In this document: positions 942 through 29,548 of the stretch, one piece after another | How the letters are laid out: each line of letters begins with the position of its first letter | Numbering within the stretch: the stretch's first letter is position 1 | Origin: a virus | Reading direction: 5' to 3' (one strand) | DNA: 34,537 nucleotides | Virus record (IMG/VR): IMGVR_UViG_3300031539_000156 | Span: 1 to 34,537 of that record | Notes under the pieces: generated by a model | Seen by the model: the letters and a program-made list of their open reading frames with translations, nothing else | Databases searched by the model: none | What the model was told of the DNA's origin: nothing | Program-made: the position numbers and the translations under genes

Positions 942-1583
942 ATGGGTCAATGTACGGCGAAATCGAAACGGTCGGGGCAGCGTTGCAAGAAGGACGCGGT
1001 CGTAGGTTTCGGCGTGTGCCACATCCACGGAGGCAAGAGCCTAGTCGGAACGGCGAACCCGGCGTTCAAGCACGGACGATACAGCCGATGTCTTCCAGAC
1101 CGACTGAGCGAGCGATATCACCTCGCTCTGGCTGATGGAGACCTGACCTCACTGGATGATGAGATCGCGTTGACCGACTCCCGATTACAGGACGAACTCA
1201 TGCGGTTGCGGACAGAGGGCCCGCAGGCTCAGTGGTCGGAGGCACGAGCGATCTTCGCCTCATTCACAGCCAACACAAATAGGAACAATCGAGACGGCGC
1301 GGTGCGCGACATCAATCGACTTCGCGTGGTGCTGGATGCGGCAGCTGATCCAGAGGCGTCGTGGATGAAAATTGACAACCTCATCGAACAGAGACGCAAG
1401 CTCGTCGAGACGGAACGGAAGCGGCTGATGGATGCGGACAAAGCCATCGCCATTGACCAACTGATGGTTATGGTCGCGGCCATCGCTGACATCGTCCGGC
1501 GTCACGTCGCGTCCAAGGAATCACGGAGGGTCATAGGGGATGAGATCCGGCGCTTGGTCGACCGCTCTACTCCGACTGGCTGA
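942..1583 (+). CDS. Candidate small terminase subunit with N-terminal zinc-binding motif
   Basis: This protein of about 213 residues lies directly upstream of the large terminase and overlaps it by 44 bases. That is the standard place for the DNA-recognising small subunit. Its start resembles a short metal-binding module found in many phage proteins: C-T-A-K then R-C-K-K, later C-H-I-H-G-G-K, giving two cysteines followed by CxxH. The rest is rich in charged helices, including a segment around ERKRLMDADKAIAIDQLM that could be an oligomerisation helix. I chose ATG 942 because GGAAGG lies about 10 bases upstream; a TTG at 921 would add seven residues. The role is inferred from position and helical character, since small terminases are poorly conserved. 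A separate DNA-binding regulator is the alternative. Confidence 0.6.
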   Translation: MGQCTAKSKRSGQRCKKDAVVGFGVCHIHGGKSLVGTANPAFKHGRYSRCLPDRLSERYHLALADGDLTSLDDEIALTDSRLQDELMRLRTEGPQAQWSEARAIFASFTANTNRNNRDGAVRDINRLRVVLDAAADPEASWMKIDNLIEQRRKLVETERKRLMDADKAIAIDQLMVMVAAIADIVRRHVASKESRRVIGDEIRRLVDRSTPTG

Positions 1584-3012
1584 CACCGTATCCCCGGAGT
1601 CGGGTCCTGTTCTTTGGACACCCATCGACGGACCACAGACGCAGGCGTTGGTCAGTGAAGCGGACGAACTGTTTTACGGCGGCGCGGCAGGGGGCGGGAA
1701 GTCGGATCTGCTTCTCGGCATGGCGGCCACTCAACACACTCGCTCCGTCATCTTCCGACGTGAGTATCCGCAGCTGCGAGATCTGATTGACCGTGCCGAT
1801 GAGATCGCTGGAGCGAACGGACAGATCAACCGTGGGTCGGGGGTCATGCAGCTGCCCGGCAGGAAGATACAGTTCGGCTCGTGTCCGCATGAAAAAGACA
1901 AGTATCGCTGGCAGGGTCGGCCCCACGATCTCAAGGCATTCGACGAGATCACGACGTTCACTCGACCCATCTTCATGTACCTCAAAACGTGGGCGCGTTC
2001 TGCGCTGCCCGACCAGCGCGTCCGCATCGTGGCGACGGGCAACCCGCCGTCCACTTCGGATGGGCTATGGGTGATTGAATATTGGGCACCGTGGCTGGAC
2101 CGCAACCATCCGAATCCAGCAGCACCCGGCGAACTCAGATGGTTCGTCACGAACAGCGACGGGGAGACAGACATCGAGGTCGACGGGCCGGAGCCGGTGG
2201 CGGTCGATGGCGAGGTGCTGTATCCAAGGTCGCGGACGTTTATCCCCGCTCTGCTCTCGGACAATCCTTATCTCTCGACCGATGACGAATACCGGGCCGT
2301 CATCCAGTCGTTGCCCGAGCCTCTTCGATCACAGATGCTCTACGGAAAATTCGACGTGTCTGTGGATGACGATCAGTGGCAGGTGATCCCGACCGAGTGG
2401 TACGACATGGCGGTACTCCGTTGGGAAGCAATGAAGGCGGCTGCTGGACCCATGACGGCGCTTGGCGTTGACGTCGCTCGGGGTGGGAAAGACAACACAG
2501 TACTCATGCCGAAGCACGGCGCATGGTATGGCCGACCCAATCTCGTCCCCGGCAAGGAATGCCGCACCGGGCGGGAGGTGGTTCGCGAAGTCGTGAAGAT
2601 GACGAGTCGAGTGCAAAGCGAAGTGAAGATCGGAATCGACGTGATCGGCGTCGGGTCCTCGCCGTACGATCTGCTGGTGGACGCGGGGGCGACGGTCAGC
2701 GGAATCAACTTCGGTGCGGGTGCTGACGATGCGACTGATCGGAGCGGCAAGTACAAGCTCGGCAATATCAGAGCAGCAGCGTACTGGGGATTCCGCGAAG
2801 CCCTCGATCCTGAGTACTCAGACATCTGCTTGCCCCCGGACAAAGCGTTGCGAGCAGAGATGATCATGCCCCGGTGGAAGGTCCGCAACGGACGAATCTA
2901 CATCGAGTCGAAAGACGACGTCGTAGCGCGGCTCGGTCGCAGCCCTGACATAGCAGATGCGACGGTGCTGGCATGGTACGTCGATAGGCGTCGCCGGATT
3001 GAGTTCTGGTGA
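1540..3012 (+). CDS. terL: Terminase large subunit
   Basis: This is the packaging motor: an N-terminal ATPase pumps DNA into the prohead and a C-terminal RNase H-like nuclease cuts the concatemer. The Walker A motif is GGAAGGGKS (residues 47-55, lysine 54). The Walker B motif is LKAFDE with D135-E136. The nuclease half shows three well-spaced acidic positions: D311 in GVDVARGG, D367 in GIDVIGVG and D473 in DIADATVLAW. These match the usual metal-binding triad. At 490 residues the length is normal and the protein looks intact. The ATG follows GGAGGGTCATAGGGG inside the upstream gene, suggesting translational coupling. The packaging type (cos or headful) cannot be decided from the sequence. Confidence 0.95.
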   Translation: MRSGAWSTALLRLADTVSPESGPVLWTPIDGPQTQALVSEADELFYGGAAGGGKSDLLLGMAATQHTRSVIFRREYPQLRDLIDRADEIAGANGQINRGSGVMQLPGRKIQFGSCPHEKDKYRWQGRPHDLKAFDEITTFTRPIFMYLKTWARSALPDQRVRIVATGNPPSTSDGLWVIEYWAPWLDRNHPNPAAPGELRWFVTNSDGETDIEVDGPEPVAVDGEVLYPRSRTFIPALLSDNPYLSTDDEYRAVIQSLPEPLRSQMLYGKFDVSVDDDQWQVIPTEWYDMAVLRWEAMKAAAGPMTALGVDVARGGKDNTVLMPKHGAWYGRPNLVPGKECRTGREVVREVVKMTSRVQSEVKIGIDVIGVGSSPYDLLVDAGATVSGINFGAGADDATDRSGKYKLGNIRAAAYWGFREALDPEYSDICLPPDKALRAEMIMPRWKVRNGRIYIESKDDVVARLGRSPDIADATVLAWYVDRRRRIEFW

Positions 3013-6671: not shown

Positions 6672-9600
6672 ATGGCGGCTCCGGCCTATGAAGGCAACGG
6701 CGGCATTGGTGCTGGGAACCTCACTTTCACAATCGATGTCCCGTATCCAAGTGGCATCGAAGCGAACGACATCCTCATCCTCCAATTGCTGTCGGCAGCG
6801 GTAGACAGTCACAACGCGATCACCGACTGGAACAAGGTAACGGAGGTTGTTCAAAGCACGAACGGGACGATGTCGTGGTACTGGAAGCGAGCGACCGGCT
6901 CTGAATCAGGGAACCTCACCTGCACTCGCACATCATCGACGGGTCCATTCTTCGGCATCATCTCGCGGTGGTCAGGGTGCACCCCTGCTGGCACGCCGTT
7001 CGAGTCGCCAACTTCCAACACCGGAAGAGCCACGACGTGGACGTCACAGGAAATCACGCCGAGCGGAAATGAAAGGCGCGTCGTTTGTCTCGTGAACATC
7101 GAAGACAACCTCGCTATCGGGACACTCGATGGTGGGAACTTCGTTGAGAATTTCGAGGAAAATAATTCCTCTGGTACGGATGGATCATTCGCTGCAAACT
7201 CATTCGCCCAAACAACAGCGGCAACAGAGGCGTCCAGAACCGGATCAATCGGCGGCACTGATTCATGGGCTTCGTTCACATTCGCACTGATTCCAGCGGG
7301 GCCATATGTCTTCGCCGCCGATTCAGCGGAACAAGTAACAGCGACGAATGAACCCGCACGAGCAGGGACGCTAGGTGAGTCGGCATCCTGGGTCACGTTC
7401 ACTCTCGCTCTACTGCCTCCAAGCACCGGGACGATCTACTCGCTCGCCGGAAGCATCGCGGCAACTGCCACCGCGACAGGTGATGCGAAAGTGACCCGGA
7501 AGGTTGCCGGGTCGGTGGCGGCTCAGGCGAATGTCGCTGGAGACATGAAGCCGATTCGGAAGATGGCTGGAACCGTCGCGGCTGCCGCCACTGTAACGGC
7601 AGATGTGAAGCCGCGCCGCAAGATGGCCGGTTCGATTCTGGCACAGGCGGCGGCAGTCGGAACGCTCGTCTTGACCCAGGCGATAGCCGGATCAATTTCG
7701 GCACAAGCCACAGTGACTGGCGACCTCGGTGAGCCGACTACGGCCTTCGATCTGGCTGGTGACATCGCGGCATCGAGTGTCTTGATCGGAGACCTCAAAC
7801 AGACCAGGGCGTTAGTTGGTGCGATCGCGGCGACTTCCGCTGCCACTGGTGATCTCACGCGCCTCCAGTTCTTCGAGAAGCAAGAGGCTCACGGCGGCTC
7901 GACCCTTTATCAGATTGCTATTTCGTCGAACCTTGTTGCATGGGCAGCAGAATGGACAGCATTCAATGATGTCCGTATTTCCAAGTTCGACATCTTCGTC
8001 GATGAACACGGTCCACTCACATTCCCAAATTACAGGTGCTTGATCCTGCCAGACGACGGAGGGCAACCGGGCAACACTCCGATAGCGAACGGGACATCCA
8101 CGACGGAAGACCTCGACGGGATCGGATACTCCACTTGGGTCTCGTTCGAGTTTCCAGGTGGGCCGCAACTGACCGCTGGCGAGACCTATTACTTCAAGGT
8201 CGAATGCATAGGATCGTTCGGCGCACCCGGATACGTCGCATGGTGGTATCTGCCCGTTGCCGATGCTCCAGCGGTGAAGGCGTGGTCGCCGTGCTGGCGA
8301 TGGAATTACCTATCTGAAAAGGCCGAATATCCAGCAAGCATTTTCACGTTTCGGTTGTTCGGTGAATTCCTTGAGACACCGGATTGGGCGCTGCGCGGAC
8401 ACGCTGTAACGAAATCAACGGTGGCAGGGAATCTCGGCGCGCCGACCCAGGTGCAGGGCCTCGCCGGTGCCATCGCCGCTGCGTCTGATCTGTCAGGCGA
8501 TCTCATCGTCACCAGGGGAATCGCCGGAGCCATCGACGCACAATCATCAGTGGCCGGAACACTGACCCTCGGTCAACGATTGGTCGGGACCATCGCGGCA
8601 GAGTCGAGTCTCGTCGGGAACCTGATGACCTCCGAGGCATCATGGCCGCTCGGTGGCAGCATTACCGCACAGTCGGATGTGAGTGGGACGCTGGCGATCA
8701 CGAATGCGGTAGCTGGAAGCATCGATGCACAGGCATCGGTGAGTGGCGACCTTTCGGTCAGCCGAGGTCTGGCCGGTGCTGTCGAGGCTCAGTCGGCAGT
8801 CGTTGGCGATCTCACCCAAACCCTAGCAGCGTGGTCACTCGCTGGAGATGTCGCTGCCGCATCCTCGCTGGCTGGTGATCTCGCAATCACTAGGAAACTC
8901 GCCGGAGCGATCTCGGCACAGACAACAGCTACTGGGGATCTCAAGGGTCGTCTGATATTGGCTGGTGGAATCGCGGCTACCTCGACACTCATCGGAGACC
9001 TGGGTGAACCAACTTCTGTTCTCGCCCTAGCTGGTAATATCGCTGCTTCGTCTGTGGTGACTGGCGACCTCAGCGTCACGCGGGATCTGGCAGGAGGGAT
9101 CGCAGCGCAGTCGACCGTGCTTGGCGATCTGACGCTGATCGCAACCTCGGATGCGGCATTCGCTGCGGACTCGTTCGTGCAGCCCTCGGCAGGGAATGAA
9201 CCGGCGAGAACAGGGACTCTCGGTGAATCAGCATCGTGGATCACGTTCACGCTGGCTCTGCTTCCGCCTTCCGAGTCGAATGTCTTGCAAGGAACGATCG
9301 CTGCCACGTCATTGGTGAGTGGCGACCTCAGCGTCATTGGGACTCAGGTTCTCGCAGGGAGCATCGCGGCGCAATCGTCACTTGCTGGCAACCTCGTCAT
9401 CCCGTCAACCGGCGCATGGGATATGGGTGCGTTCATCTATGACACCGGGTCTACGACTCGGCAGCTTGCCGGTGCTATCGCGGCCACCTCTGCACTGACC
9501 GGGACGCTCGCACAGACGTATCGACTTGCCGGATCCATTGGCGCACAGTCTGTTCTCACTGGCGATCTCGTTCTAGCTGGTGAATGGGAACTGGCTGGAT

Positions 9601-11564
9601 CGATCGCGGCACAGAGCTCGATTGCCGGTGATCTAAAACCCACACGCGAGCTGGCCGGAAGCATCGGAGCGCAATCCACGCTGGCCGGAAATCTGATCGT
9701 GCCATCGACAGGCGCGTGGGACATGGGTGCCTACATCTACGATACTGGCTCAACGACCAGACAACTCCAAGGGGCCATCGCTGCAATTGCAGCACTGACA
9801 GGCGATCTGAAATCCACACGAAAACTTGCGGGTGCGATCTCTGCTCAATCGTCTCTCGTTGGTGATCTCACTCTGGCAGCAGAGACGTTCGATCTCGCAG
9901 GAGACATAGCCGCAACCGCTGCTCTTACTGGTGATCTCAAACCCGTTCGAGAATTGTCGGGAACGATAGGTGCTGTCTCTACGGTCACGGGCGATCTCGG
10001 GGAGCCGAAGCAGACGTGGCAGCTGGCTGGTGATATCGCTGCGGCATCCGATCTGGCAGGGGATCTGCTCGTCTCCAGAAAAGTAGCGGGAACGATAGCC
10101 GCACAAGCTGAGGTGAGCGGAACACTCACCCTCGATCAGCGGCTGGTCGGAGTGATCGCGGCGCAGTCGGAACTCCTCGGCAACCTGATGACAGATGAGG
10201 CAGCATGGCCGCTTGCCGGGACTATCGAAGCGCAGTCGTCAGTGGTCGGTAATCTCAAGACGACGATGAGATTGGCTGGAAGCGTCTCGGCGCAATCCGA
10301 TCTCGTTGGGGATCTCAAACCGTCGCGGTCACTCGCGGGATCGATTGCCGCACAAAGCACACTGCTCGGAGACCTCCAGGCGGCTCGTGGGCTGAGTGGA
10401 ACGGTCGCAGCGCAATCGGATCTCGCAGCGTCTCTCAGCCTCTCTCAGCGTCTTGTCGGTAGCCTCGTGGCACAGTCCGTAGTGACCGGCAACTTGATGA
10501 CTGACGAGGCGGCATGGCCGCTTTCTGGCGACATATCCGCAACGGTCAATGTCTCGGGAGAACTCACGCAGACGATTGCCCTGTCTGGAGGCATCGAAGC
10601 GCAGAGCGAGGTGACCGGGAATCTCGAATCCATCGAGGCGGTGTGGTCGCTAGCTGGAAGCATCGACGCGACTGCGACCGTCACCGGAACGATCACATCA
10701 CAGCGGCAGCTTGCCGGGATCATCGAAGCGCAGAGTGTCGTGGTCGGGAATCTGATGACCGAGGAGGCTGCATGGCCCCTCAGTGGAACGATTGACGCGA
10801 CGTCATCGTTGACCGGCGAGTTGACCGGGACGCTCAGAACTCAGGGGGGTATCGCTGCCCAGTCCTCATTCGTTGGGGATCTGAAGGTCACGCGAAACCT
10901 TGCAGGTGCAATCGAGGCGACCTCGACTGCCGCTGGTGATCTGAATGTCGTTGAAGCAGCGTGGCAGCTGGCTGGTGGGGTCGAGGCAACGTCGAGCATC
11001 AGTGGCGACGTGAAGGTGATCCGCAAGCTGGAAGGTTCTGTTGCTGCCACATCCGATGTCAGCGGGACTTTGGCAGCCACGATGAAGCTGGCCGGAACCA
11101 TCGAGGCGCAGAGCAGCGTAATCGGGAATCTTGGAGGCAGTCGAGTTCTCTCGGGGGCGATTGCCGCATCGTCAAACGTGACTGGCGACCTGACCAAGAT
11201 CGAGGCGTCGTGGTCCTTGGCTGGAGGCATCGCAGCGACCTCTGAATTGTCCGGGCATCTGTCACAGACTGCCGCGCTCGTTGGTGCTGTCGAGGCAACT
11301 TCTGCGCTCTCCGCCTATCTCACTCTCCATCAGGTTCTGGCTGGATCAGTCGAAGCTCAATCTGAATTGACGGCGAATCTGAGTTGGCTTCCGCTAGGGG
11401 CGTGGCCGCTTGCTGGTAACATCGAGTCGCAAGCGACGGTCATTGGGGATCTCGGACAGTATTACAACGGAGATGTCTACGCAGTCGTGGATGATGAATC
11501 CGATAGGGTGTGGGTGGATTTCGATGATGGAAATTACGGAGCAGACTTTGGACCGTTGACGTGA
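6672..11564 (+). CDS. Giant repeat-built fibre protein (about 52 twenty-residue repeats)
   Basis: This 1630-residue protein is mostly tandem repeats. Residues about 1-210 match the last domain of the preceding protein and end in SWASFTFALIP. A terminal piece of that domain recurs next (NEPARAGTLGESASW) and again near 9156-9280. From 7440 onward I count about 52 units of a 20-residue motif, L-A-G-x-I-x-A-x-S-x-V-x-G-D-L followed by a variable turn. An unrelated beta-sandwich-like insert lies at about 7866-8390. The alternating hydrophobic pattern predicts a beta-solenoid or fibrous shaft. A 50-residue acidic end (VDFDDGN) closes it. The ribosome site is weak: GAGGG sits 13 bases from the ATG. 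Likely a head or tail fibre; receptor binding is inferred only. Confidence 0.7.
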   Translation: MAAPAYEGNGGIGAGNLTFTIDVPYPSGIEANDILILQLLSAAVDSHNAITDWNKVTEVVQSTNGTMSWYWKRATGSESGNLTCTRTSSTGPFFGIISRWSGCTPAGTPFESPTSNTGRATTWTSQEITPSGNERRVVCLVNIEDNLAIGTLDGGNFVENFEENNSSGTDGSFAANSFAQTTAATEASRTGSIGGTDSWASFTFALIPAGPYVFAADSAEQVTATNEPARAGTLGESASWVTFTLALLPPSTGTIYSLAGSIAATATATGDAKVTRKVAGSVAAQANVAGDMKPIRKMAGTVAAAATVTADVKPRRKMAGSILAQAAAVGTLVLTQAIAGSISAQATVTGDLGEPTTAFDLAGDIAASSVLIGDLKQTRALVGAIAATSAATGDLTRLQFFEKQEAHGGSTLYQIAISSNLVAWAAEWTAFNDVRISKFDIFVDEHGPLTFPNYRCLILPDDGGQPGNTPIANGTSTTEDLDGIGYSTWVSFEFPGGPQLTAGETYYFKVECIGSFGAPGYVAWWYLPVADAPAVKAWSPCWRWNYLSEKAEYPASIFTFRLFGEFLETPDWALRGHAVTKSTVAGNLGAPTQVQGLAGAIAAASDLSGDLIVTRGIAGAIDAQSSVAGTLTLGQRLVGTIAAESSLVGNLMTSEASWPLGGSITAQSDVSGTLAITNAVAGSIDAQASVSGDLSVSRGLAGAVEAQSAVVGDLTQTLAAWSLAGDVAAASSLAGDLAITRKLAGAISAQTTATGDLKGRLILAGGIAATSTLIGDLGEPTSVLALAGNIAASSVVTGDLSVTRDLAGGIAAQSTVLGDLTLIATSDAAFAADSFVQPSAGNEPARTGTLGESASWITFTLALLPPSESNVLQGTIAATSLVSGDLSVIGTQVLAGSIAAQSSLAGNLVIPSTGAWDMGAFIYDTGSTTRQLAGAIAATSALTGTLAQTYRLAGSIGAQSVLTGDLVLAGEWELAGSIAAQSSIAGDLKPTRELAGSIGAQSTLAGNLIVPSTGAWDMGAYIYDTGSTTRQLQGAIAAIAALTGDLKSTRKLAGAISAQSSLVGDLTLAAETFDLAGDIAATAALTGDLKPVRELSGTIGAVSTVTGDLGEPKQTWQLAGDIAAASDLAGDLLVSRKVAGTIAAQAEVSGTLTLDQRLVGVIAAQSELLGNLMTDEAAWPLAGTIEAQSSVVGNLKTTMRLAGSVSAQSDLVGDLKPSRSLAGSIAAQSTLLGDLQAARGLSGTVAAQSDLAASLSLSQRLVGSLVAQSVVTGNLMTDEAAWPLSGDISATVNVSGELTQTIALSGGIEAQSEVTGNLESIEAVWSLAGSIDATATVTGTITSQRQLAGIIEAQSVVVGNLMTEEAAWPLSGTIDATSSLTGELTGTLRTQGGIAAQSSFVGDLKVTRNLAGAIEATSTAAGDLNVVEAAWQLAGGVEATSSISGDVKVIRKLEGSVAATSDVSGTLAATMKLAGTIEAQSSVIGNLGGSRVLSGAIAASSNVTGDLTKIEASWSLAGGIAATSELSGHLSQTAALVGAVEATSALSAYLTLHQVLAGSVEAQSELTANLSWLPLGAWPLAGNIESQATVIGDLGQYYNGDVYAVVDDESDRVWVDFDDGNYGADFGPLT
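9405..9461 (+). repeat. Duplicated 19-residue insert, copy 1
   Basis: The stretch STGAWDMGAFIYDTGSTT is attached to one 20-residue repeat. It recurs exactly 300 bases downstream at 9705-9761 with one residue changed (F to Y). The pair marks a 100-residue duplication unit inside the fibre. Confidence 0.85.
9705..9761 (+). repeat. Duplicated 19-residue insert, copy 2
   Basis: This is the second copy of the insert at 9405-9461, with synonymous base changes throughout, for example ACC to ACA and GCA to GCG. The protein sequence is conserved while the DNA has drifted, so the inserted loop is probably under selection. Confidence 0.85.
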
Positions 11565-11968: not shown

Positions 11969-14275
11969 ATGTCGAGTCAACTCGGACTGTTCAAACGCCT
12001 CCGACTTGCAACGAAACTCTTGGGGCAGGTAAGCGAGGATGAACAGCGAATCCTCTCCAAGATCATCCCCGGTGGATATAAGACCTCACCACATCGTGGC
12101 GTTAACGGAATGCTTACCGCATATTCGCGCAGCCCGTGGGTGCGGGCAGTCGTAGGGAAGATCGCTGAATCGATTGGTTCAACCTCATGGGGTCTGTTCG
12201 CGGTCAAGGGTTCTGGCGGGAAGTTTATCAAGCACAATCGTCTTCAGGCGAAAGGGATCTCGCGCAAGGATTTCGCGCTCGGCAACCTCGACCTTGACGG
12301 TGGGCAGGAGCTGGTGCCGATCACCGATCACCCATTCCTTCGGCTGCTGAACACGGCGAACCCACTCTTCCCAGGATCGGTAGGTCGAGCGCAGACGAGC
12401 ATCAGTTTAGAACTCACTGGTGAAGCATTTTGGATCCTAGATCCTGAGTGGCAGGGTGGCCGAGCGGTTCCAGAGCGATTCTGGTTGATTCCCGCAACAT
12501 GGGTGCGAGGGATGCCCTCACAGGAGGAACCCTACTGGCAGATATCGACTCCGAACTGGCAGGGCAAACTTCCGGTGCCAGCGGTGTTTCGGTTCGTGAC
12601 GCCTGACCCTGTCAATCCATATGGTCGTGGCTCTGCTCACCTCCGCGCATTCGGTGATGAGATCGACACGGACGAATACGCTGCACAGTACACGAAGAAC
12701 TGGTTCCTAAATTCGGCGCGCCCTGACCTTCTCATCACGTCGAATGACCTCGACCCTTCAGATACCGCTCGAATGGAAACGTCATGGATGCAGCAGGTCG
12801 GGTCGTTCATGCGAGCACACAAGCCGATGTTCCTTTCCAAGAAGGTCGATGTGCAGATTCTGTCGTCGAAATTCAGCGACATGGAAATGCGTCCGCTCCG
12901 TGCGTGGGAGCGCGACATCATCCTCCACGGGATCGGGATGCCTCCTGAGATCCTGGGCATCATCGAGAATTCAAACCGCGCCACCATCGAGGCTGCCGAC
13001 TACCTCATGGCGAAATACGTTCTGACTCCCCGACTCGAATTGCAGCGGACCTTTCTGCAATACAACTTGCTGCCCATCTACGACGACCGATTGATCCTCG
13101 GATACGAGTCACCAGTGGAAGAGGATGCTGCCTACCAACTCGAAGTGATGAAGGCAAACCCGGCAGCGTTCACCATTGCGGAATGGAAGCAGCAGGCTGG
13201 CAAGCCGTGGGACGAAAAGGATGAGGTGTATCTGCTGCCGTTCAACGTCAAGGTCGTGTCGTCGCTGGAGCCGACTGTGGATCCGCTGGCGGCAGGCGTG
13301 AGGTATCAACAAAGAACCCCATTCCTGGCGTCTGGCGACGGGTCTGAGCCTTCGTGCGGCTGCACAGAGGGCATCCACAGCCACGGGGCATTACCGCGCT
13401 CTACGGAGCCGATTTTGGGAAAGGGTGTGGGCGGGGATCAGGCGGTCACGGCGGCGATGAATTACACCGAGGAGATGCGGAAGGAAATCATCCGAGCGTT
13501 CATGGCTCTGCGGAACGAGGTCGACCTCACAGAGTTAGCAGCTGCCTTCGATTCGGGGAACGTCAATCGGGTGCTGGCTCTGATCAGCGAAGCGGACATT
13601 GCCGACTCACTCGAAGGGTCACGACAGATTCTGAAAGAGGCGTTGGTGTCGGCGGGTGAAGCTGCCGCCGCCGAGCTGTCGACCTTCCTCGGTGAGACGA
13701 TTGCATTCTCACTTATCAATCCGAATGCAGTCGAGTTCTTGGAGACCTATGGCGGGGCGATGGTGACGAATATCACCCCGGAAACGATGGAAGCAATTCG
13801 TGCTGCGCTGGCTGAGGCGTACGAGCTTGGGCTGACCCCTGCCGAAGCCGCCAAACGAATCCGCGACTCCATCGGTCTTACAGCCGACATGGAGCGGCAG
13901 CGAGCGAAGCTGATTGCAGATATGCTCGACGCGGGTGCTACGCAATCCGAGGTGGATGCGTTCATCGCGGACTGGACCGAAGCGAAGATCAAATGGCGTG
14001 CAAACAACATCGCGCAAAACGAGCTCGCAACCGCGAGCAATCAGGGACAAGAGATGCTGTGGGATCAAGCCGCACAGGAGGGCTACATTGATCCGAAAAA
14101 GGCTACCCGTGAATGGCTGACGACGGGGAGCGATAAAGTCTGTCCGCTCTGCGCTCCAATGAACGGCGCACTAACGAGAATTGGAGAACCGTGGCAAACT
14201 CAAGTGGGGCCGGTGATGACACCGAATGAAATCCACGTCCGCTGTCAATGCACAGAGATTCTGAATCCAGGTTGA
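11969..14275 (+). CDS. Portal protein fused to a MuF-like domain
   Basis: This 768-residue protein combines two functions. Residues about 1-440 have HK97-family portal features: an N-terminal helix, the SPWVRAVVGKIAESIGS segment, a LTGEAFWIL strand, and the region with FSDMEMRPLRAWERDI and GMPPEILG typical of the portal stem and crown. A linker containing a small cysteine/histidine patch (CGCTEGIHSH) and helices leads to a C-terminal part with RANNIAQNELATASNQG, then C725-P-L-C and H756-V-R-C-Q-C. The latter is the Phage Mu F / minor head protein pattern. It forms the dodecameric DNA gate, with the MuF part probably facing the capsid interior. Start is ATG 11969, one base after the upstream stop. 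Confidence 0.9.
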   Translation: MSSQLGLFKRLRLATKLLGQVSEDEQRILSKIIPGGYKTSPHRGVNGMLTAYSRSPWVRAVVGKIAESIGSTSWGLFAVKGSGGKFIKHNRLQAKGISRKDFALGNLDLDGGQELVPITDHPFLRLLNTANPLFPGSVGRAQTSISLELTGEAFWILDPEWQGGRAVPERFWLIPATWVRGMPSQEEPYWQISTPNWQGKLPVPAVFRFVTPDPVNPYGRGSAHLRAFGDEIDTDEYAAQYTKNWFLNSARPDLLITSNDLDPSDTARMETSWMQQVGSFMRAHKPMFLSKKVDVQILSSKFSDMEMRPLRAWERDIILHGIGMPPEILGIIENSNRATIEAADYLMAKYVLTPRLELQRTFLQYNLLPIYDDRLILGYESPVEEDAAYQLEVMKANPAAFTIAEWKQQAGKPWDEKDEVYLLPFNVKVVSSLEPTVDPLAAGVRYQQRTPFLASGDGSEPSCGCTEGIHSHGALPRSTEPILGKGVGGDQAVTAAMNYTEEMRKEIIRAFMALRNEVDLTELAAAFDSGNVNRVLALISEADIADSLEGSRQILKEALVSAGEAAAAELSTFLGETIAFSLINPNAVEFLETYGGAMVTNITPETMEAIRAALAEAYELGLTPAEAAKRIRDSIGLTADMERQRAKLIADMLDAGATQSEVDAFIADWTEAKIKWRANNIAQNELATASNQGQEMLWDQAAQEGYIDPKKATREWLTTGSDKVCPLCAPMNGALTRIGEPWQTQVGPVMTPNEIHVRCQCTEILNPG

Positions 14276-14288
14276 TTGGAGACGAACG

Positions 14289-15371
14289 ATGGCACACTTC
14301 CTGACCCGCGAACAATTCGACTCGTGGTTCAAAGCCACTGGTGGCAAGCCGCTGGTGGATGGGTCACTCCCCGCGATTCGCAAATTCGGATCGTTTGAAA
14401 TTGAGCACAAGGACGTGGATCCAGTGACCGGACTCATGGACATCGACTTCGTGATCTCGACCCCTGCTTTGGATCGGGATAACGACGTGATTGATCAGAG
14501 CGGTTGGGATCTCGATCACTACCAGAGGAACCCTGTCGTTCTGTGGGCACACGACTACAGCAAGCCGCCCATTGGGAAGTCGGTCAAGGTGTGGGTGAAG
14601 GGGAAAAAACTTCTGTCGCGTGATCGGTTCACGCCGCAGGAAATCAATCCGTTCGGCCACATGGTGTACCAGATGATCAAGGGCGGATTCCTCAACGCGA
14701 CATCGGTGGGCTTCCGTCCGCGGAAATACGTCTACAACGATGAGCACGGCGGGTACGACTTTGCAGAGCAAGAACTCATGGAGCACTCCGTTGTTCCGGT
14801 GCCTTCAAACCCGGAAGCACTGATGGCTGCGTCAGCGCAAGGTATCGACCTCGCCCCGATGAAAGAGTGGGCCGAAAAAATTCTCGATCGTGATCCCGAT
14901 GGGGACAAGATCGCTCTGTGGCTGCCGAAGAGTCTCGTGACCGAGATTCACTCGGAACTCTCCAATGTCGCTGTGAGCCTGAGTAGCACCAGCACTTGGA
15001 CGGGTGAGGATGGATCGACGTTCACCTCCTCGGATGCCATCTTCGACAAGGATGGGGATACGATTGTTGATCCCATCACCGTGTCTAACACAATACCAAC
15101 CAACGACAACGAGGAGAGACTTATGGAAGAGGCAATGAAGGCACTCACCGAGGTCATCCGCGAGTTGAACGACAACGTCGCCAAGCTGCCCGAGACAATC
15201 GCCGCCAAGGTGGGCGCGGAGATCGAGGCGAAGTTGGTCGTTCCCGAAAAGGAAAAGGAACCCGACGACTCTGATGAGGAGTTGGACCTATCTGCGGACG
15301 ATCTCAAAGCACTCATCACAGGTGCGGTCAACGAGGCGATCACCGCCACGACCGGCGCGTTGCCGGGCTGA
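14289..15371 (+). CDS. HK97-type prohead protease with C-terminal scaffold-like region
   Basis: This serine protease of the S78 type cuts scaffold and capsid N-termini during prohead maturation. Key positions are visible: LWAHDYSKPPIG with H88, and FLNATSVGF with S139. An acidic partner is likely in the EQELMEHSVVPVPSNPEA segment. That leaves about 80 C-terminal residues that are helical and acidic, including LTEVIRELNDNVAKL and DDSDEELDLSADDLKAL. They resemble a scaffolding domain. At 360 residues it is longer than protease-only relatives, consistent with a fusion. An internal start at 15123 could make the scaffold separately. The capsid gene follows 13 bases downstream. Confidence 0.88.
   Translation: MAHFLTREQFDSWFKATGGKPLVDGSLPAIRKFGSFEIEHKDVDPVTGLMDIDFVISTPALDRDNDVIDQSGWDLDHYQRNPVVLWAHDYSKPPIGKSVKVWVKGKKLLSRDRFTPQEINPFGHMVYQMIKGGFLNATSVGFRPRKYVYNDEHGGYDFAEQELMEHSVVPVPSNPEALMAASAQGIDLAPMKEWAEKILDRDPDGDKIALWLPKSLVTEIHSELSNVAVSLSSTSTWTGEDGSTFTSSDAIFDKDGDTIVDPITVSNTIPTNDNEERLMEEAMKALTEVIRELNDNVAKLPETIAAKVGAEIEAKLVVPEKEKEPDDSDEELDLSADDLKALITGAVNEAITATTGALPG
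15123..15371 (+). CDS. Nested in-frame scaffold protein (candidate)
   Basis: Methionine 279 of the protease gene is preceded by GAGGAGAG at 15111-15118, with its AGGAG core 6 bases from the ATG. That is better than many starts in this region. Initiation there would give an 82-residue acidic, helical protein identical to the protease C-terminus. The arrangement parallels lambda C/Nu3 and other phages in which the protease gene contains an internally started scaffold. Production is inferred; only the ribosome site and amino-acid character are seen. Confidence 0.55.
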   Translation: MEEAMKALTEVIRELNDNVAKLPETIAAKVGAEIEAKLVVPEKEKEPDDSDEELDLSADDLKALITGAVNEAITATTGALPG

Positions 15372-15384
15372 AAGGAAAACCAAA

Positions 15385-16566
15385 ATGAAACTGACCAAGG
15401 AAAGCATCGCGGCTCTGGCGAAGGAAATCGCCACCGAGGTGATGGCATCTCGTGAACCCGCACCCCAGTCGGTCGGGTTCGATGACATGGTGAAAGCCAT
15501 GTCACAACTCCGCGCACCGGCACCGCAGCCGGAGCGCAACGAAAAGGGACTCGGGTTCGCCCGTTTCCTCCGTGCGATGGCAAGCGGCAAGGGCGACCCA
15601 GAGCGTGCGGCGAAATACGCCAACAAACTCTGGGGTGCAGACAACGAGATCACCAAGATCCTCCAGGCGTCTGATGACTCGGCGGGTGGCGTGTTTGCCC
15701 CGACCGGCATCTCGTCTGAAGTGATCGAACTGCTGCAGGAACGGGCGGTGTTCCGTGCGATGGGACCGACCATCGTTCCGATGCCGACTGGCTCGCTGCA
15801 GATTCCGAAGATCACTGGCGGCGCGACCGCGTCGTACATCGGTGAGACGCAGAACATCGCGATCACTGAGCAGACCACCGGCATGATCAACTTGACCTGG
15901 AAAAAGTTGGCAGCGATGATCCCGATCAGCAACGACTTCCTGCGGTACGAGAGTTACGGTGCGGACTCGATGATTCGCAACGACACCGTGGCTGCGCTGG
16001 CAACCCGCGAAGACCTCGCGTTCATGCGTGGTGACGGAACCGAGCACACTCCCAAGGGGATGCTGCACTACGTTCCGAGCGCAAACACCTTCGATGCGAA
16101 TGCCACCGTCAATCTCGCCAACGTGACCTCTGATGTGGCTGATGCTCTGCTCCGTTTGCGGAATGCACATTGCCGGATGCTGAAAGTTGGCTGGCTGTGG
16201 AATCCGCGCACCACGATGTGGTTGAAACAGATCCGCGACACCAACGGCAACTTTGCGTTCAAGGATGAGATGGACCGGGGAATGTTCTGGGGCTTCCCGT
16301 ATCTCGACACCACCAACATCCCGATCAATCTCGGCGGCGGCACCGAGTCTGAAATCTACCTCGTCGATTATGCCGACATGATCCTCGGTGAAGCTGGGCA
16401 ACTCATGGTCGACACATCGACCGAGGCGTCCTACTGGGATGGCTCCGCTCTCCAGTCGGCCTACTCAAAAGACCTGACGCTGATGCGCGTCATCGCTCAC
16501 CACGACCTCGGGGTGCGGCACGACGCCTCCATCGTCGTCATCACCGCCGTCAAGTGGATCCCGTAA
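15385..16566 (+). CDS. Major capsid protein, HK97 fold
   Basis: This 393-residue protein has the familiar HK97 layout. About 95 N-terminal residues are helical and charged (LTKESIAALAKEIATEVMAS), corresponding to a delta-like segment expected to be removed by the protease. The core then begins with GGVFAPTGISSEVIELL. Further marks are the VPMPTGSLQIPKITGG strand, the ISNDFLRYES turn before the long helix, GDGTEHTPKGML, and an ending of RVIAHHDLGVRHDASIVVITAV. It assembles the icosahedral shell. I chose ATG 15385 after AAAGGAAAACC rather than longer upstream readings, which overlap the protease gene. Confidence 0.93.
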   Translation: MKLTKESIAALAKEIATEVMASREPAPQSVGFDDMVKAMSQLRAPAPQPERNEKGLGFARFLRAMASGKGDPERAAKYANKLWGADNEITKILQASDDSAGGVFAPTGISSEVIELLQERAVFRAMGPTIVPMPTGSLQIPKITGGATASYIGETQNIAITEQTTGMINLTWKKLAAMIPISNDFLRYESYGADSMIRNDTVAALATREDLAFMRGDGTEHTPKGMLHYVPSANTFDANATVNLANVTSDVADALLRLRNAHCRMLKVGWLWNPRTTMWLKQIRDTNGNFAFKDEMDRGMFWGFPYLDTTNIPINLGGGTESEIYLVDYADMILGEAGQLMVDTSTEASYWDGSALQSAYSKDLTLMRVIAHHDLGVRHDASIVVITAVKWIP

Positions 16567-19743: not shown

Positions 19744-20187
19744 ATGACACAGCCCCTGTCCTCACACGGCACCCTGCTCCAGATGGGAGCGAGTGGCGGC
19801 GGTGGACCCTACACGACGATTGCGGAAGTGGTCGACGCTTCTGGTCCTTCGTTCCAACAGGCAACCCATGACGCGCCATCGCAAGACATCACCTGGATGA
19901 AAAAGGTAGCCGGACTGGTCTCCGCAGGAGAGGTCACGTTCGATATCAATTTCATCCCGAAGAATTCGACGCACGATGCGTCCACGGGGCTGCTCTCCAT
20001 CCTTGGAGCGCAGGTCGTCAATGGGTTCAAACTTCTGTACAACGACGCTGGTGCTGGCACGGCATCGTATTGGACGTTTGACGCCTATATGGTTGGCTTC
20101 GATCAGGACGTTCCAGTGGATGGAATCCTGATGGCTTCCATCACGCTCCAGATCAACGGACAGCCGACCTTCACGAAAGGATCCTAA
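19744..20187 (+). CDS. Tail tube protein, short paralogue
   Basis: This 147-residue protein is probably a major tail tube subunit, beta-rich and immediately upstream of the chaperone and tape measure genes. It begins TQPLSSHGTLLQMG, has a glycine spacer (ASGGGGPY), and then continues with AEVVDASGPSFQQATHDAP through a C-terminal QDVPVDGILMASITLQ. Nearly all of this is repeated in the next gene. Start is ATG 19744, after GAGGAGGTATGAC. The tube function follows from order and fold pattern. Confidence 0.75.
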   Translation: MTQPLSSHGTLLQMGASGGGGPYTTIAEVVDASGPSFQQATHDAPSQDITWMKKVAGLVSAGEVTFDINFIPKNSTHDASTGLLSILGAQVVNGFKLLYNDAGAGTASYWTFDAYMVGFDQDVPVDGILMASITLQINGQPTFTKGS

Positions 20188-20190
20188 GCC

Positions 20191-20916
20191 ATGACCCAAC
20201 CACTTTCGTCTCATGGAACTCTGCTGAAAATGGGCGACAACGCCGGGACGCTCGGCGCGTGGTCGCAAACGGGGGTAGGTCTCGACGATCTATCGTGGGA
20301 CGCGCTCGCTGCGTACCAAGGTGGACCGACGCGAGTAATCCGAGTTGAGATCGACCTAGCCGACACCAACGACACATTCCGCTGGTCACTCGACGGTGGC
20401 GTGTCTTGGGAAGAGGAAGGCATCCCCATTCCTGGGGCCGGGACGTCCTACAATCTGCCGTTCGGATTGGTCATCGAATTCGCAGCCATCACCGGCCACA
20501 CCCTCAATGATTATTGGGAAGCTACGGTCAGCGCGGTGTTCACGACCGTTGCCGAAGTCGTAGATGCTTCTGGACCATCGTTCCAGCAAGCCACGCACGA
20601 CGCCCCGAGCCAAGACATCACCTGGATGAAAAAGGTCGCTGGTCTTGTATCCGCAGGCGAGATGACCTTTGACATCAACCTCATTCCGAAGAACCAAACC
20701 CACGACGACTCGACGGGACTGCTGGCCCTCATCGGTCTGCAGCACACCACCGGGTTCCAACTCGTCTACAACGATGCCGGTGCTGGCACGGCATCCGACT
20801 GGAAGATGGATTGCTACGTCGTTGGGTTTGACCAAGACGTGCCGGTTGACGGAATCCTCATGGCATCCATCACCCTGCAAATAAATGGGCAGCCAGTGTT
20901 CACCAAAGGGTCGTAA
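20191..20916 (+). CDS. Tail tube paralogue with an inserted extra domain
   Basis: This 241-residue protein repeats the preceding tube protein at both ends (shared start and the last roughly 120 residues), but replaces the short glycine spacer with about 94 extra residues. The insert (about residues 41-113) contains FRWSLDGGVSWEEEG and GHTLNDYWEA. A related insert occurs in the protein at 25445. The shared halves are almost identical in residues but differ at many third codon positions, so both copies look functional. The inserted domain could project from the tube surface. It follows its twin by three bases, with an AAAGGA ribosome site in the twin's end. Confidence 0.72.
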   Translation: MTQPLSSHGTLLKMGDNAGTLGAWSQTGVGLDDLSWDALAAYQGGPTRVIRVEIDLADTNDTFRWSLDGGVSWEEEGIPIPGAGTSYNLPFGLVIEFAAITGHTLNDYWEATVSAVFTTVAEVVDASGPSFQQATHDAPSQDITWMKKVAGLVSAGEMTFDINLIPKNQTHDDSTGLLALIGLQHTTGFQLVYNDAGAGTASDWKMDCYVVGFDQDVPVDGILMASITLQINGQPVFTKGS

Positions 20917-21315: not shown

Positions 21316-21611
21316 GTGAGGAACTGTTTTGGAATCTGACGCCATACGAATTCGAACTTCTGATGCGCCGACATCGAAACGATGCGAAGTGGGTCGAGGT
21401 GATGGCAGCGGTGACGCCGTGGGTTTTCGCAGAAGCACATCGAGATCCGAAAAAACGTCGGAAGTCATACTCATTGGAAGAGTGGACGGTGACAGGTCTC
21501 ACGACGCCACGAAAGCGGAAGGTGGTCCGAGATCCGGCAGCTGTATTCGGCCACATCAGCGCAGGTCTGAATGCGCTTGGAGGAAAGCCTGATGTCAACC
21601 ATCGTAGGTGA
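20935..21611 (+). CDS. Frameshifted long tail assembly chaperone (gpGT-like)
   Basis: A -1 shift near 21264-21280 would join the first chaperone to a frame running to the TGA at 21609-21611. The joined product would be about 225 residues. The second frame reads as WGDIWSVGIYDLRLSEELFW, then LTPYEFELLMRRH and AEAHRDPKKRRKSYSLEEW. This closely resembles the T-like second halves of such chaperones in other phages. It has no convincing start of its own near the first frame's end. The tape measure ATG lies within its last 20 bases. The shift itself is inferred; the conserved downstream frame is seen. Confidence 0.78.
21264..21280 (+). other. Probable -1 ribosomal frameshift site
   Basis: Within 17 bases lie a run of five C's (21264-21268) and a run of six G's (21274-21279). 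In the first frame the G-run is exactly two GGG codons. A tRNA on the second can slip back one base and still pair perfectly, and the next codon becomes GAT, entering the T-like frame. The CCC codon in the C-run also allows perfect slippage in the P site. Which is used cannot be settled by eye. Confidence 0.7.
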
Positions 21612-23973
21612 CCTGCTCGTAAAACTCAGGGGCGATACGACTCAGTTCACTGGGGCGATGGCAACTGCTCAGGCAAAGCTGAAAAAGATGGGCGCGACGA
21701 TGACGGCGATCGGTCGCCAGATTTCCATGTCAATCTCGTTGCCGCTCTTGGCTGCAGGGGTGGCAGCGGTCAAGTTCGCTTCGGATTTCGATATGACGCT
21801 TTCCCGCGTCGTGGGTCTTGTCGGTCTGTCTCGGCAGGAGGTCGCAGCGTGGCGTGATGAGATCCTACAACTCGGGCCCTCGGTAGGGAAGTCGTCGAAG
21901 GAATTGGGCGAGGCTTTGTTCTTCGTCACGTCCGCTGGTATCCGTGGGGCTGAAGTAATGAAGACCGTGGAGGCGGCAGCCCAAGGCGCAGCTGCTGGAT
22001 TGGGTGACACAGCTGTCGTTGCCGATGCGGTGACGTCCGCGATGAATGCCTACGCAACATCGAATATTTCAGCAGAGCAGGCGACAGCAGTTCTGGTCGC
22101 CACGGTCCGCGAGGGTAAAGCCGAAGCCGCCTCACTTGCTCCCGTTCTCGGTCGCATCCTCCCGGTAGCAAATACCCTCGGCGTCAGCTTCGATCAAGTT
22201 GGGGCGGCTCTGGCTGCAATGACAAGGATCGGTTTCGATGCCGCGACTGCCGCGACCTCACTCCGGGCAACGATGGTTCAGTTGACAAAGGTGACACCCG
22301 CTCAAGAAAAGGCTGCACTTGAAATGGGTCTGAGTTTTGAGCGACTTCGCAAGACGATTCAGGAAGATGGACTGATTGCAGGTCTGCAGCAGATCAAGGA
22401 TGCCGTTGGCGAAGACGAAGTAGCCATGACGAAAATCTTTCCGAACATCCGTGCGCTCTCCGGTGTGCTTGCCATGATGGGTGATTCCGCAGAGGCGACG
22501 ACAGCAATTTTCGCTCGCATGGCGAAGACCACGACCGATGATTTGGCTGTCGCGTTTGCAGCTGCCGAAGAACAGGCTGGATTCAAATTCCATCAGGCAC
22601 TCGTCGCGCTCCAGAATCTCCTCATCAAGATCGGAGACGACGTGCTGCCGAAGCTCGTACCGTGGGTCGAAAAACTCACGGCGAAAATGCAAGAGTGGAT
22701 GACGGCGTGGAAGGACATGTCGCCGGGAATGAAGGACTTCATTCTGAAGGCGGCGGGGTTACTGATCACCCTCGGCCCGCTGGTCATCATTCTTGGATCG
22801 TTGGCGAATGGATTGGCAGCCATTTTCGGAATCGTCGGTTCAGTGGTTGGGGCGATCGGAGGTCTTCTCGGATTCGGAGCGGTTACGACTGCGGTGACGG
22901 CAACAGGGACGGCAGCGGTAGGGGCTGCCACGGCTCTGACTGCAGCGGAGGCGTCATTGATCGCAGCTGGATCTGCAGCAACAGCAGCGGGGATTGCTTT
23001 CGTAGCGATGGCGGCTGGTGCAATCGTAGTAGGTGCTGGCATCGGAGTCGTGGTCGGAACCTACATCCGACCCTACGTCAATGAACTCCTCGGTCTAAAC
23101 GAAGCGTTGGGGCTGGTCGCACAGAAGCAAAATGATCTTCACGAGGGTCTGGCCGAAAGCCAGGATGCGTACGAAGCGCAACTCGATGTCACGCGGAAGA
23201 TGATCAAGCAACTCGGTCTCGAAGGAAAAGAGTGGCAGCTGCAATCGGACTTCACTCGGGAGAACGCATCGCGCTTGAATGACGTCACGGAAAAGGTCAC
23301 CGCCCTAGCCCGAGAAAAATCGGCTCTAAGCGCGACCATGCGCGAGTCCTTGGCAGCCTCAGACGCAGAGGCTGCGGCGCAGGAGAGGAACGCTCAGGCA
23401 ATCACTACGGCGATTGAGGAAGAGACTGCTGCAGAGGCGGCACACCTCGATGCTCTGAAGGAGAAATACGACGTTCTGTCCAAGGACGACATCGCGGCTC
23501 AGATGAACGACATTGCCGCTGATTTCCTGGCGTTGAAAGATACCGTGGACACGACGCAGCTTGCCGAGAAGTTCAACGAGCCGATGCTTCAGATGGCGAA
23601 GCTTGCAGCCGAGAACAAAGTCGCGTTTCCGCAGCCGTTCAAAGATGCCGCCTCAGCCCTCGGAGACAAGCTGGCACCGGGGATGAAAAACCTTATCGAC
23701 CAGTCCGTCAATTTCAGAAACGACTTCACGAACACGGGCAAGGTAATCGACGGGATTATGTGGTCCACCGGGGAGTCGACGAAGGCGGCTCTGTCCGGGG
23801 GATTCAAGAACGGGATCACAGAGGGGATCGCAAGCGGGAAGGTCGCCATTGACGAATTTGTGAAGCGTCTCGAATCGGACGTAATCTACATCCCGGTGCA
23901 GCCGAATCTTGAAGGCTGGAACCAAGCGGTACAGGACGCGATGGAAGGTCGCGTCCCGAACACGACGGGGTGA
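21592..23973 (+). CDS. Tape measure protein
   Basis: This protein of about 793 residues sets tail length and is ejected with DNA. The N-terminal domain (STIVGDLLVKLRGDTTQFTGAM) and the following long helices (ALFFVTSAGIRGAEVMKTVEAAAQGAA) match the TP901-type tape measure pattern. A hydrophobic, probably membrane-active stretch covers residues about 384-425 and another about 440-490, rich in alanine, glycine and valine. The rest is helical and coiled-coil-like. At about 1.5 angstroms per residue, the tail would be near 120 nm. ATG 21592 follows GGAGGAA by a good distance and lies inside the chaperone reading frame; an upstream ATG at 21571 is less likely. No muralytic domain is obvious. Confidence 0.9.
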   Translation: MSTIVGDLLVKLRGDTTQFTGAMATAQAKLKKMGATMTAIGRQISMSISLPLLAAGVAAVKFASDFDMTLSRVVGLVGLSRQEVAAWRDEILQLGPSVGKSSKELGEALFFVTSAGIRGAEVMKTVEAAAQGAAAGLGDTAVVADAVTSAMNAYATSNISAEQATAVLVATVREGKAEAASLAPVLGRILPVANTLGVSFDQVGAALAAMTRIGFDAATAATSLRATMVQLTKVTPAQEKAALEMGLSFERLRKTIQEDGLIAGLQQIKDAVGEDEVAMTKIFPNIRALSGVLAMMGDSAEATTAIFARMAKTTTDDLAVAFAAAEEQAGFKFHQALVALQNLLIKIGDDVLPKLVPWVEKLTAKMQEWMTAWKDMSPGMKDFILKAAGLLITLGPLVIILGSLANGLAAIFGIVGSVVGAIGGLLGFGAVTTAVTATGTAAVGAATALTAAEASLIAAGSAATAAGIAFVAMAAGAIVVGAGIGVVVGTYIRPYVNELLGLNEALGLVAQKQNDLHEGLAESQDAYEAQLDVTRKMIKQLGLEGKEWQLQSDFTRENASRLNDVTEKVTALAREKSALSATMRESLAASDAEAAAQERNAQAITTAIEEETAAEAAHLDALKEKYDVLSKDDIAAQMNDIAADFLALKDTVDTTQLAEKFNEPMLQMAKLAAENKVAFPQPFKDAASALGDKLAPGMKNLIDQSVNFRNDFTNTGKVIDGIMWSTGESTKAALSGGFKNGITEGIASGKVAIDEFVKRLESDVIYIPVQPNLEGWNQAVQDAMEGRVPNTTG

Positions 23974-27550: not shown

Positions 27551-29548
27551 GTGAGCGTCACCACTCCCCAGGTCGCTCGGGCTGGCGGTCGCGCTCCGCG
27601 TTCCCAGATCAGCGGGCAGCAGTTCACCGAGGTTCTGATCGGTGGGTTGGCTGGATCCGTCGCGGCATCGCCAGTCATCAATTCAAGCGTCAAGATCATC
27701 CAACTGAAGTCGTGGTCTCCTCCAATCACCGACCTGGTGCGGAGGGCCGAACCGATCACGCTGAATTTTGAAGCCGTCTACTCGGAAATGCTCTCGCAGC
27801 GATGGACGACGAACGTCAATTATGACGTTGGTACTTTCATCAACGCGAGGGCAAACGACGCCAAGATCGAACTTGCAGCCATCCAAGGCATCGAATTGTG
27901 GGACGAGACGGCTGACACCGGGAACTGGACGAAGCGCACGAGTGCTGCCGCGACGATCTCATCATCTGCGGAAGATGGGAAGGTTCGGTACAACGCAACG
28001 TACAAAACTGGTTTCTGGACTTATGACGGTGGGCCGCTTTCTGCAGGCATCGAAATCCGTGGGTCGTTCTACGGCACCAGCTTCAACAGTTCGGCAGGAT
28101 TGATCGCCCGGGTAACTGGGGCGGGGACTGCGTGTCGCGGCTACCGGATCGAATACAGATTCACTCAGCACGATATGATCCTAACCCGGATCACTGGCGA
28201 CGGAACAACGGCTCTGATCACTCAGTTTTTCGGCGCAGCGAACTACGAAAACAAGTGGTTCAACATGGCGTACAAGATCACCGAGGATCACCACCACTGG
28301 TACAAGCTCTGGCTCGTCGGCGCAACGGAACCGACATCATGGTCAGGCGGGACATTGAACTCGGTTCACACTGACAACGGTGCGGCTGGGGTAAGTTTTA
28401 CGAACAGCTTCTCGAATGACCAGATCACTGCCGGGCCTGTCACGATAGAGGCAATCCCACCGGAGCGCGAGACGAGCGGAACCTGGGTCAGTGAAGTCGT
28501 GGACGTGACCCCGGTGAAGGCGTACTCGTTTGGGTCGTTGACCTGGGATGAAGACCTTCCGACCGGCACCTCGTTGACGATGGAGATTCGATGGGCTGGA
28601 GGGTCGTGGCTTACCGTCACTAACGACGGTGAGTTCCCAGGTATCGACTACGGCGAGAAGATCGAGGCAGGGACGTCGAAGACCACGCTGGAAATTCGAG
28701 CGTCACTGGCGACCACCGACACCTACGAGACTCCGCTCTTGTCGAACATCCGTTTGTATTTCGAGCCGTGCCGAGTCGACCAGCTGAGCCTGACCAGGGA
28801 TGGGGATGACCACACCACCGCGCTCGGCAACCTCGAACACTGGGGGCAGGGGTGGGTCGGCGATGTTAGCGGAGGAGTGCCGACGAAGGAGTCGGCCACC
28901 TGGGACGACCTCTATCTCGAAACGAAGTACGAACGGCTGCTGTCTCACCTCTACCCATTCGACATCGTGGTCGACTATTACGGGCACACCGTTCTGACTG
29001 GATCATTCATCACGGTCGAGGATTTGGATCGGGCAGTCGATGGGAAAGAATTCTATTGGAGCGTGCCGCCTATACCGAGGGCGTCTGGCAACAACGAATT
29101 CAACTACACCGTATATTCAAAGTGGGAACCGTTCGGGAAAACCTACGAGTGGAATATCGTTGACAAAGGCTCTGCCATTCACGCAGACGTCAAATATCTT
29201 GTCGGCCACGCTCAGATTGACAACCAGCCGATTTCCTTCGTCCTTGCCATTCCGATCATCGACGATCACAAGCTGTCGGTGACGGCGAACGCCTGGAAGC
29301 GGGACACCCACCCACTGTCGGCAATCATCCAAGGATGGAAGCTCGACGCGCAGCCGATGTCGTACTCGGTCGGCATCTGGACGATCAACGATCACCCGGT
29401 CTCCGCGCTCGTCGCGCTGCGATTCCTGAACGACCATCCCGCATCGCTGCTCGTGTACGGTGTGAACCGAACCGGCATGATCGAGGTCAATATCATTTCG
29501 GATGCGACGTGGGACGAACTGACGGCCCTCGGGTTCACGAGGAGTTGA
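27551..29548 (+). CDS. Tail protein with lectin-like domain and 14-residue repeats
   Basis: This 665-residue protein starts at GTG with weak SD-like purines. Residues about 115-300 look like a concanavalin-A/laminin-G-type fold (SAGLIARVTGAG, GYRIEYRF, HHWYKLWLVGATEPTSW). A fibronectin-like segment follows (TWVSEVVDVTPVKAYSFGSL), then a hub-like region (YPFDIVVDYYGHTVLTG). The C-terminus has six tandem 14-residue repeats (29216-29467), for example INDHPVSALVALRF. The last residues (ATWDELTALGFTRS) resemble short closing motifs in tail proteins. It likely attaches the tail to the cell surface. The lectin resemblance is by pattern. Confidence 0.6.
   Translation: MSVTTPQVARAGGRAPRSQISGQQFTEVLIGGLAGSVAASPVINSSVKIIQLKSWSPPITDLVRRAEPITLNFEAVYSEMLSQRWTTNVNYDVGTFINARANDAKIELAAIQGIELWDETADTGNWTKRTSAAATISSSAEDGKVRYNATYKTGFWTYDGGPLSAGIEIRGSFYGTSFNSSAGLIARVTGAGTACRGYRIEYRFTQHDMILTRITGDGTTALITQFFGAANYENKWFNMAYKITEDHHHWYKLWLVGATEPTSWSGGTLNSVHTDNGAAGVSFTNSFSNDQITAGPVTIEAIPPERETSGTWVSEVVDVTPVKAYSFGSLTWDEDLPTGTSLTMEIRWAGGSWLTVTNDGEFPGIDYGEKIEAGTSKTTLEIRASLATTDTYETPLLSNIRLYFEPCRVDQLSLTRDGDDHTTALGNLEHWGQGWVGDVSGGVPTKESATWDDLYLETKYERLLSHLYPFDIVVDYYGHTVLTGSFITVEDLDRAVDGKEFYWSVPPIPRASGNNEFNYTVYSKWEPFGKTYEWNIVDKGSAIHADVKYLVGHAQIDNQPISFVLAIPIIDDHKLSVTANAWKRDTHPLSAIIQGWKLDAQPMSYSVGIWTINDHPVSALVALRFLNDHPASLLVYGVNRTGMIEVNIISDATWDELTALGFTRS
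29216..29467 (+). repeat. Six tandem 14-residue (42-base) coding repeats
   Basis: The units are IDNQPISFVLAIPI, IDDHKLSVTANAWK, RDTHPLSAIIQGWK, LDAQPMSYSVGIWT, INDHPVSALVALRF and LNDHPASLLVYGVN. All have the same length and phase. The common pattern is hydrophobic, D/N, x, H/Q, P, hydrophobic, S, then alternating hydrophobics. A possible degenerate seventh unit lies just before, at 29174-29215. DNA copies are strongly diverged. Confidence 0.9.

Follow-up and report, generated by a model that had tools for sequence, protein, structure and literature searches.

The window analysed here is a 34.5-kb virus record (IMGVR_UViG_3300031539_000156; 34,537 nucleotides) with siphovirus structural genes, which next to those for terminase, portal and tape measure (Table 1) include genes for a protease, an HK97-type capsid protein, head-tail connectors and two tail-tube-like proteins. 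A module located between the terminase and portal genes encodes, in this order and entirely on the plus strand, a Gp80-family protein, a NosD-like protein, a 352-aa ORF, a giant repeat protein and a phrog_1084 protein, the genes nearly abutting from the NosD-like one onwards. The Gp80-family protein passes the PF23140 profile with 92.6 bits (Pfam cut-off 27; E 3.3e-26; residues 4-127 of 129), and a profile of its relatives matches the GP4 virion chain 8jou_a (E 2.6e-22). The truncated copy of domain B in the 352-aa ORF is 53 % identical, and a small gene follows the repeat gene in other phages as well.

Table 1. Coordinates of the module around the giant repeat gene and of structural genes in the window; L005, L006 and L046 are relatives described in the text
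Feature	Position	Strand	Remarks
Terminase	1540-3012		
Gp80-family protein, 129 aa	3694..4083	+	PF23140, podophage GP4 fibre I; presumed appendage base
NosD / right-handed beta-helix protein, 482 aa	4149..5597	+	fused to repeat protein in L046 and L006
Upstream ORF, 352 aa	5597..6655	+	one repeat unit (at 6101) between N-terminal domain and truncated domain B copy
Giant repeat protein	6672..11564	+	1630 aa, 51-52 units
Domain B (N-terminal, non-repeat), residues 1-257	6672..7442	+	kin in C-terminal part of upstream ORF, L005, L046 and L006
Repeat block 1, residues 258-395	7443..7856	+	7 units (unit scan)
Insert domain, residues ~396-573	7857..8390	+	no relative found; low-confidence beta-strands
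Repeat block 2, residues ~574-820	8391..9131	+	12 units, including a degenerate one at residue ~574
Second insert, residues 821-871	9132..9284	+	partial duplicate of the domain B end, E 1e-13
Repeat block 3, residues 872-1594	9285..11453	+	33 units, including two 38-residue spacings
phrog_1084 protein, 129 aa	11578..11967	+	ends in one weak unit (LKGTILGTTTLAADL)
Portal-MuF fusion	11969-14275		one 768-aa ORF; Mu-F-like head morphogenesis domain
Tape measure	21571-23973		

Elsewhere in the window, the last 98 nt of the protease ORF (14289-15371) also belong, in another frame, to the capsid ORF (15274-16566), and the two are matched as one by phrog_617; they may be fused by a frameshift or contain an overlapping scaffold region. 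The tail-tube-like proteins (147 and 241 aa; 19744-20916) are adjacent and both match the lambda-type TTP family. Six large tail-region ORFs (253-698 aa) between 24416 and 33183 have no PHROGs match, and short NDHP(V/A)S repeats occur near the C-terminus of the ORF at 27551-29548. The window begins within a glycosyltransferase-like (RGP) gene (1-894, open at the window start) and ends within that of an amidase-like lysin (34257-34535, WIDAGHGGEDSGA, open at the window end).

The giant ORF is real and continuous and starts with ATG. A position-specific scan trained on its own units, with the threshold set on residue-shuffled copies of the protein, detected 51 units, and 52 after retraining on relatives, the additional one being the degenerate unit at about residue 574. 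Units are spaced mostly by 20 (31 times) or 23 residues (13 times), next to spacings of 22, 24 and 38 residues and two large gaps, in agreement with the approximately 52 units of 20- and 23-residue forms counted in an earlier note on this DNA. Both 38-residue spacings of block 3 contain GAWDMGA(F/Y)IYDTGSTTRQ. While the array as such is real, the description of the protein as made almost wholly of the repeat was too strong: the three interrupted blocks account for about 68 % of the chain, and the N-terminal domain plus two inserts form the rest. With domain B and the insert domain as queries, viral contigs and the PDB revealed no kin beyond L005, L046, L006 and the upstream ORF, and BLASTP did not relate the insert domain to the first domain of the upstream ORF. 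AlphaFold2 (AF2) modelling of residues 1-700 was poor (pLDDT 44) and mostly unreliable beyond residues 1 to about 110; this first part of domain B is predicted as beta-strands (block pLDDT 62-90). Its best structural match, the head domain of the Tuc2009 RBP, was rejected at a Z of 6.9, below the trusted level.

Each unit follows the core pattern L-x-G-x-I-x-A-x-S-x-V-x-G-D-L, with the consensus LAG(S/A/T)I(A)A(Q/T)S(x)(V/L)(x)G(D/N)L, after which come about five residues of the type KxTRK. Glycine at position 3 is invariant in all 51 scanned units of the window and alanine occupies position 7 in 50 of 51. In block 3, sequence identity amounts to 0.28 at lag 20 as compared to 0.05-0.09 at lags 18, 19, 21 and 22; a value of 0.20 at lag 10 reflects an internal 10-residue half repeat, and super-periods of 20+23 and 20+20+23 are visible at lags 43 and 63. 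At the DNA level, copies share a mean identity of 55 %, and Tandem Repeats Finder detected no array with a period of the ~20-residue unit in the window. Identity among copies is 0.61, 0.72 and 0.34 at codon positions 1, 2 and 3, with 0.26 expected from composition at position 3. The residue pattern rather than the DNA is therefore conserved, as third positions are near random while the first two are maintained, and the observation that copies differ in DNA yet keep their pattern is borne out. The DNA copies of the unit are old, with third positions nearly randomised.

Relatives were sought with two-unit DNA patterns in viral contigs, followed by the unit scan. The repeat was found in about 40 phage contigs, mostly with period 20. 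In total, 45 ORFs (including that of the window) harbour at least 4 units, with a spacing of 20 residues by far the commonest; at this threshold, the loci retrieved contain 43 real ORFs as compared to 0 after residue shuffling. Unit number ranges from 4 to 45 among relatives. The 52 units of the window form the longest array found, but long arrays are not as exceptional as had been assumed, since other phages reach 45, 34, 28 and 27 units. Among 15 bacterial-genome loci, true period-20 arrays occur in two (L057 and L064); the other 13 were dismissed as chance or unrelated L-G repeats. Repeats of Microcystis/Pseudanabaena phages (E 8e-10 to a relative) differ in consensus and the 'TGTLDAS' repeats of Lactobacillus phage 3-521 belong to another type. 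Another contig (L003/L082, IMGVR_UViG_3300031565_001584) is identical to the window over the last 22 residues of the giant protein and the whole capsid protein, and stops close to the 3' terminus of the giant gene. Such genes may be under-represented, as assemblies possibly break at the repeat.

The nearest relative, L005 (IMGVR_UViG_3300009169_000072), encodes a 1354-aa repeat protein with 45 units, matches domain B with 65 % identity (E 2e-85) and shares the 5'-side gene order with the window (Gp80, 7e-55; NosD-like ORF, 8e-17). It differs by about 160 extra N-terminal residues, the absence of the insert domain and an array that is not collinear with that of the window: the longest increasing run comprises 11 units, with a random mean of 10.2. 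The lack of collinearity indicates that arrays turn over and that their length is not fixed. The proposal of the earlier note that shaft length is selected is thus not supported, given unit numbers of 4-52 and the lack of collinearity between the two closest arrays; what is conserved is the residue pattern.

In other relatives, repeats are joined to recognisable domains: CBM_4_9 and a beta-helix in L006, a beta-helix/NosD domain in L046, Laminin_G_3 (laminin-G) on one chain with repeat blocks in L020, and CBM96 and the disaggregatase-related Disaggr_repeat likewise in L023 and L044. The window instead possesses NosD as a separate gene. Fusions to CBM, laminin-G and lyase-like domains fit a fibre whose repeats would space putative sugar-binding parts.

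The repeat unit has no match in Pfam, NCBIfam or the PDB and, as judged from these sequence searches, the family is absent from the libraries covered. PHROGs matched the giant protein weakly and at residues 722-830 only, in low-complexity repeat (phrog_10356, 'virion structural protein', E 9.4e-5). Of 39 repeat segments, 12 matched phrog_10356 and three phrog_29955 ('appendage'), and matched categories include 'tail protein'; both phrogs provide a category annotation only and describe neither a repeat unit nor a mechanism. Tblastn against 50,697 phages returned nothing significant with the whole giant protein, nor did a search of phages with a 525-aa repeat stretch, the repeat being probably lost to low-complexity masking. 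PDB entry 9lc0 ('60 kDa protein', E 1e-4) contains an NVNTVAGSID-type repeat and was treated as a compositional match. Bactofilin (PF04519) was matched weakly by three of the 39 segments (best 0.0011) and by L053 (20.7, cut-off 27.9), and the giant protein has no Pfam match to it.

Charge is absent (to the nearest percent) at positions 1, 3, 5, 7, 9, 11, 13 and 15 of the 454 units from about 40 phages, and these eight alternate positions keep hydrophobic or small residues throughout. AF2 modelling of 11 units with 39 diverged rows yielded a predicted all-beta solenoid (pLDDT 77.3, pTM 0.70; monomer model). Strands locate at unit positions 4-7 and 10-17, i.e., about two per 20-residue coil and not one per unit as originally proposed. 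VIA aligned the model to the beta-solenoids of HMW1 (2odl), MpAFP (3p4g) and CsgA (8c50), i.e., adhesin, ice-binding and curli proteins of the same predicted fold class, at Z 17-18. These proteins nevertheless differ from the giant in lacking a sequence match, in their consensus and in non-significant Foldseek E-values; Foldseek with the repeat model gave no match with E below 1e-3.

The proposed beta structure is thus supported by the strict inside/outside alternation and by AF2, the latter with a known bias, as AF2 over-predicts beta-solenoids for repeats (PMC11795689). According to Pratt et al., perfect random repeats lead to confident false solenoids, often with buried charge, while for natural families with diverged repeats all methods predicted alike (PMC11795689). 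This documented bias, together with the suspicion that beta-helices in phage adhesin spacers are artefacts (PMC13243795, section 16), would accommodate a flexible, largely disordered linker with a false predicted solenoid. Such a linker is nonetheless very improbable: the present units are diverged, and for repeats of this kind the methods agreed (PMC11795689); moreover, eight charge-free alternate positions across 454 units are unexpected for disorder. Diverged units and uncharged buried positions favour real beta structure, be it in a monomer or in a trimer.

Phage fibre shafts are mostly trimers, and a trimeric (or dimeric) fibrous shaft, built as a multi-chain beta-prism or beta-spiral, would be equally compatible with an even period of 20 and with buried and exposed positions that alternate strictly. 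AF2 places the strands in one chain, albeit modelled as a monomer only, and the tolerated units of 22 and 23 residues are compatible with loops in both folds and do not discriminate; overall, a multi-chain shaft appears rather unlikely. For the single-chain solenoid, each unit is predicted to form one coil. Beta-solenoids rise by 0.48 nm per coil, and at one coil per unit the 52 units would extend over about 25 nm.

The linkage to Gp80 is the strongest result. In loci selected by the repeat and not by Gp80, a Gp80-family gene was detected in 30 of 36 repeat-carrying records (29 above the Pfam cut-off), and the six records without it are fragments of 4.7-19.8 kb. As a capsid-protein query for unselected related phages returned no contig other than one identical to the window, IMG/VR contigs drawn by an arbitrary 15-mer served as control; none of these 11 contains Gp80. 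Among 12 contigs that match the repeat pattern but lack a full array, Gp80 is present in three, all of which have 2-3 real units. Repeat gene and Gp80 are co-oriented in all 32 cases, and in 25 of these 32 the repeat gene starts 0-3 kb downstream of Gp80 (gaps being slightly underestimated with repeat ORFs measured from stop to stop). This linkage to a fibre-type gene and the carbohydrate-binding and lyase-like fusions in relatives corroborate the earlier assignment as a fibre or shaft.

The Gp80-family neighbour resembles a component of the tail-fibre apparatus of podophage GP4 (PDB 8jou; Zheng 2023, as cited in PMC11784390), whose structure paper is cited there for three types of tail fibres. 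A GP4 fibril linking an adhesin to a tail collar is described in PMC13243795. The phage of the window differs in its siphovirus tail genes, and no match was found between the giant repeat and the GP4 chains. In Alishewanella phage LSH1, gp34-36 combine, as here, a lyase-like beta-helix domain with a poorly predicted beta-helix-like spacer, alongside an Ig-fold partner and a fibril of the GP4 type (PMC13243795). A search of the LSH1-related phage Slicko01 for the repeat, run without a positive control, gave no match.

Counter to a tail fibre, the giant gene is surrounded by head genes, with terminase on one side and portal on the other, and its product could be attached to head or neck. It would then form a collar-whisker comparable to the neck passage structure (NPS) of lactococcal siphophages, which is expressed with the capsid in TP901-1 and whose fibre ends in carbohydrate-binding or lyase-like modules (PMC6669499). 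The small downstream gene matches BppU_N in three of 12 cases (best E 0.037), far from significance and on a separate gene. By contrast, the lactococcal NPS has a coiled-coil shaft and an N-terminal BppU on the same chain (PMC6669499), and the giant shows neither: no coiled coil is predicted in the repeat, and no Pfam match to BppU_N was found at its N-terminus. Moreover, Gp80 of GP4 has been classed with the tail fibre proteins. A neck or head whisker is accordingly a possible but somewhat doubtful placement.

The giant protein is probably the shaft or spacer chain of a virion-surface adhesin anchored via Gp80, and the repeat unit most likely serves uncultured phages as shaft or spacer in an adhesive fibre of variable length. 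The 20-residue units would form a beta-rich extended shaft with L/I/V/A/S/G at odd positions in its core and polar or charged residues outward, on which domain B and the insert would be carried as adhesive or structural beads, and the chain would be anchored on the virion by the adjacent protein of the Gp80 family (fibre I/collar type). We infer the virion location as well as the attachment to Gp80, the latter from gene linkage. The NosD-like beta-helix protein is probably part of this appendage, in which it would bind or cleave polysaccharide, and domain content suggests that the appendage would bind host-surface polysaccharide. More tentatively, and with chances a little short of even, the repeat may define a widespread undescribed shaft class: a diverged 20-residue beta-solenoid spacer of evolvable length, with Gp80-type bases and CBM or lyase domains between coils.

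The way in which a phage reaches through host polysaccharide depends on fibre length and on the order of the beads. The repeat is probably hidden from ordinary BLAST by low-complexity masking, and the repeat scan allows a probable adhesin to be recognised in many uncultured phages with unannotated fibre proteins, for which the Gp80 linkage provides a testable anchor. Should the single-chain solenoid hold true, it would differ in design from the trimeric shafts usual for fibres and would offer a natural source of rods whose length can be tuned.
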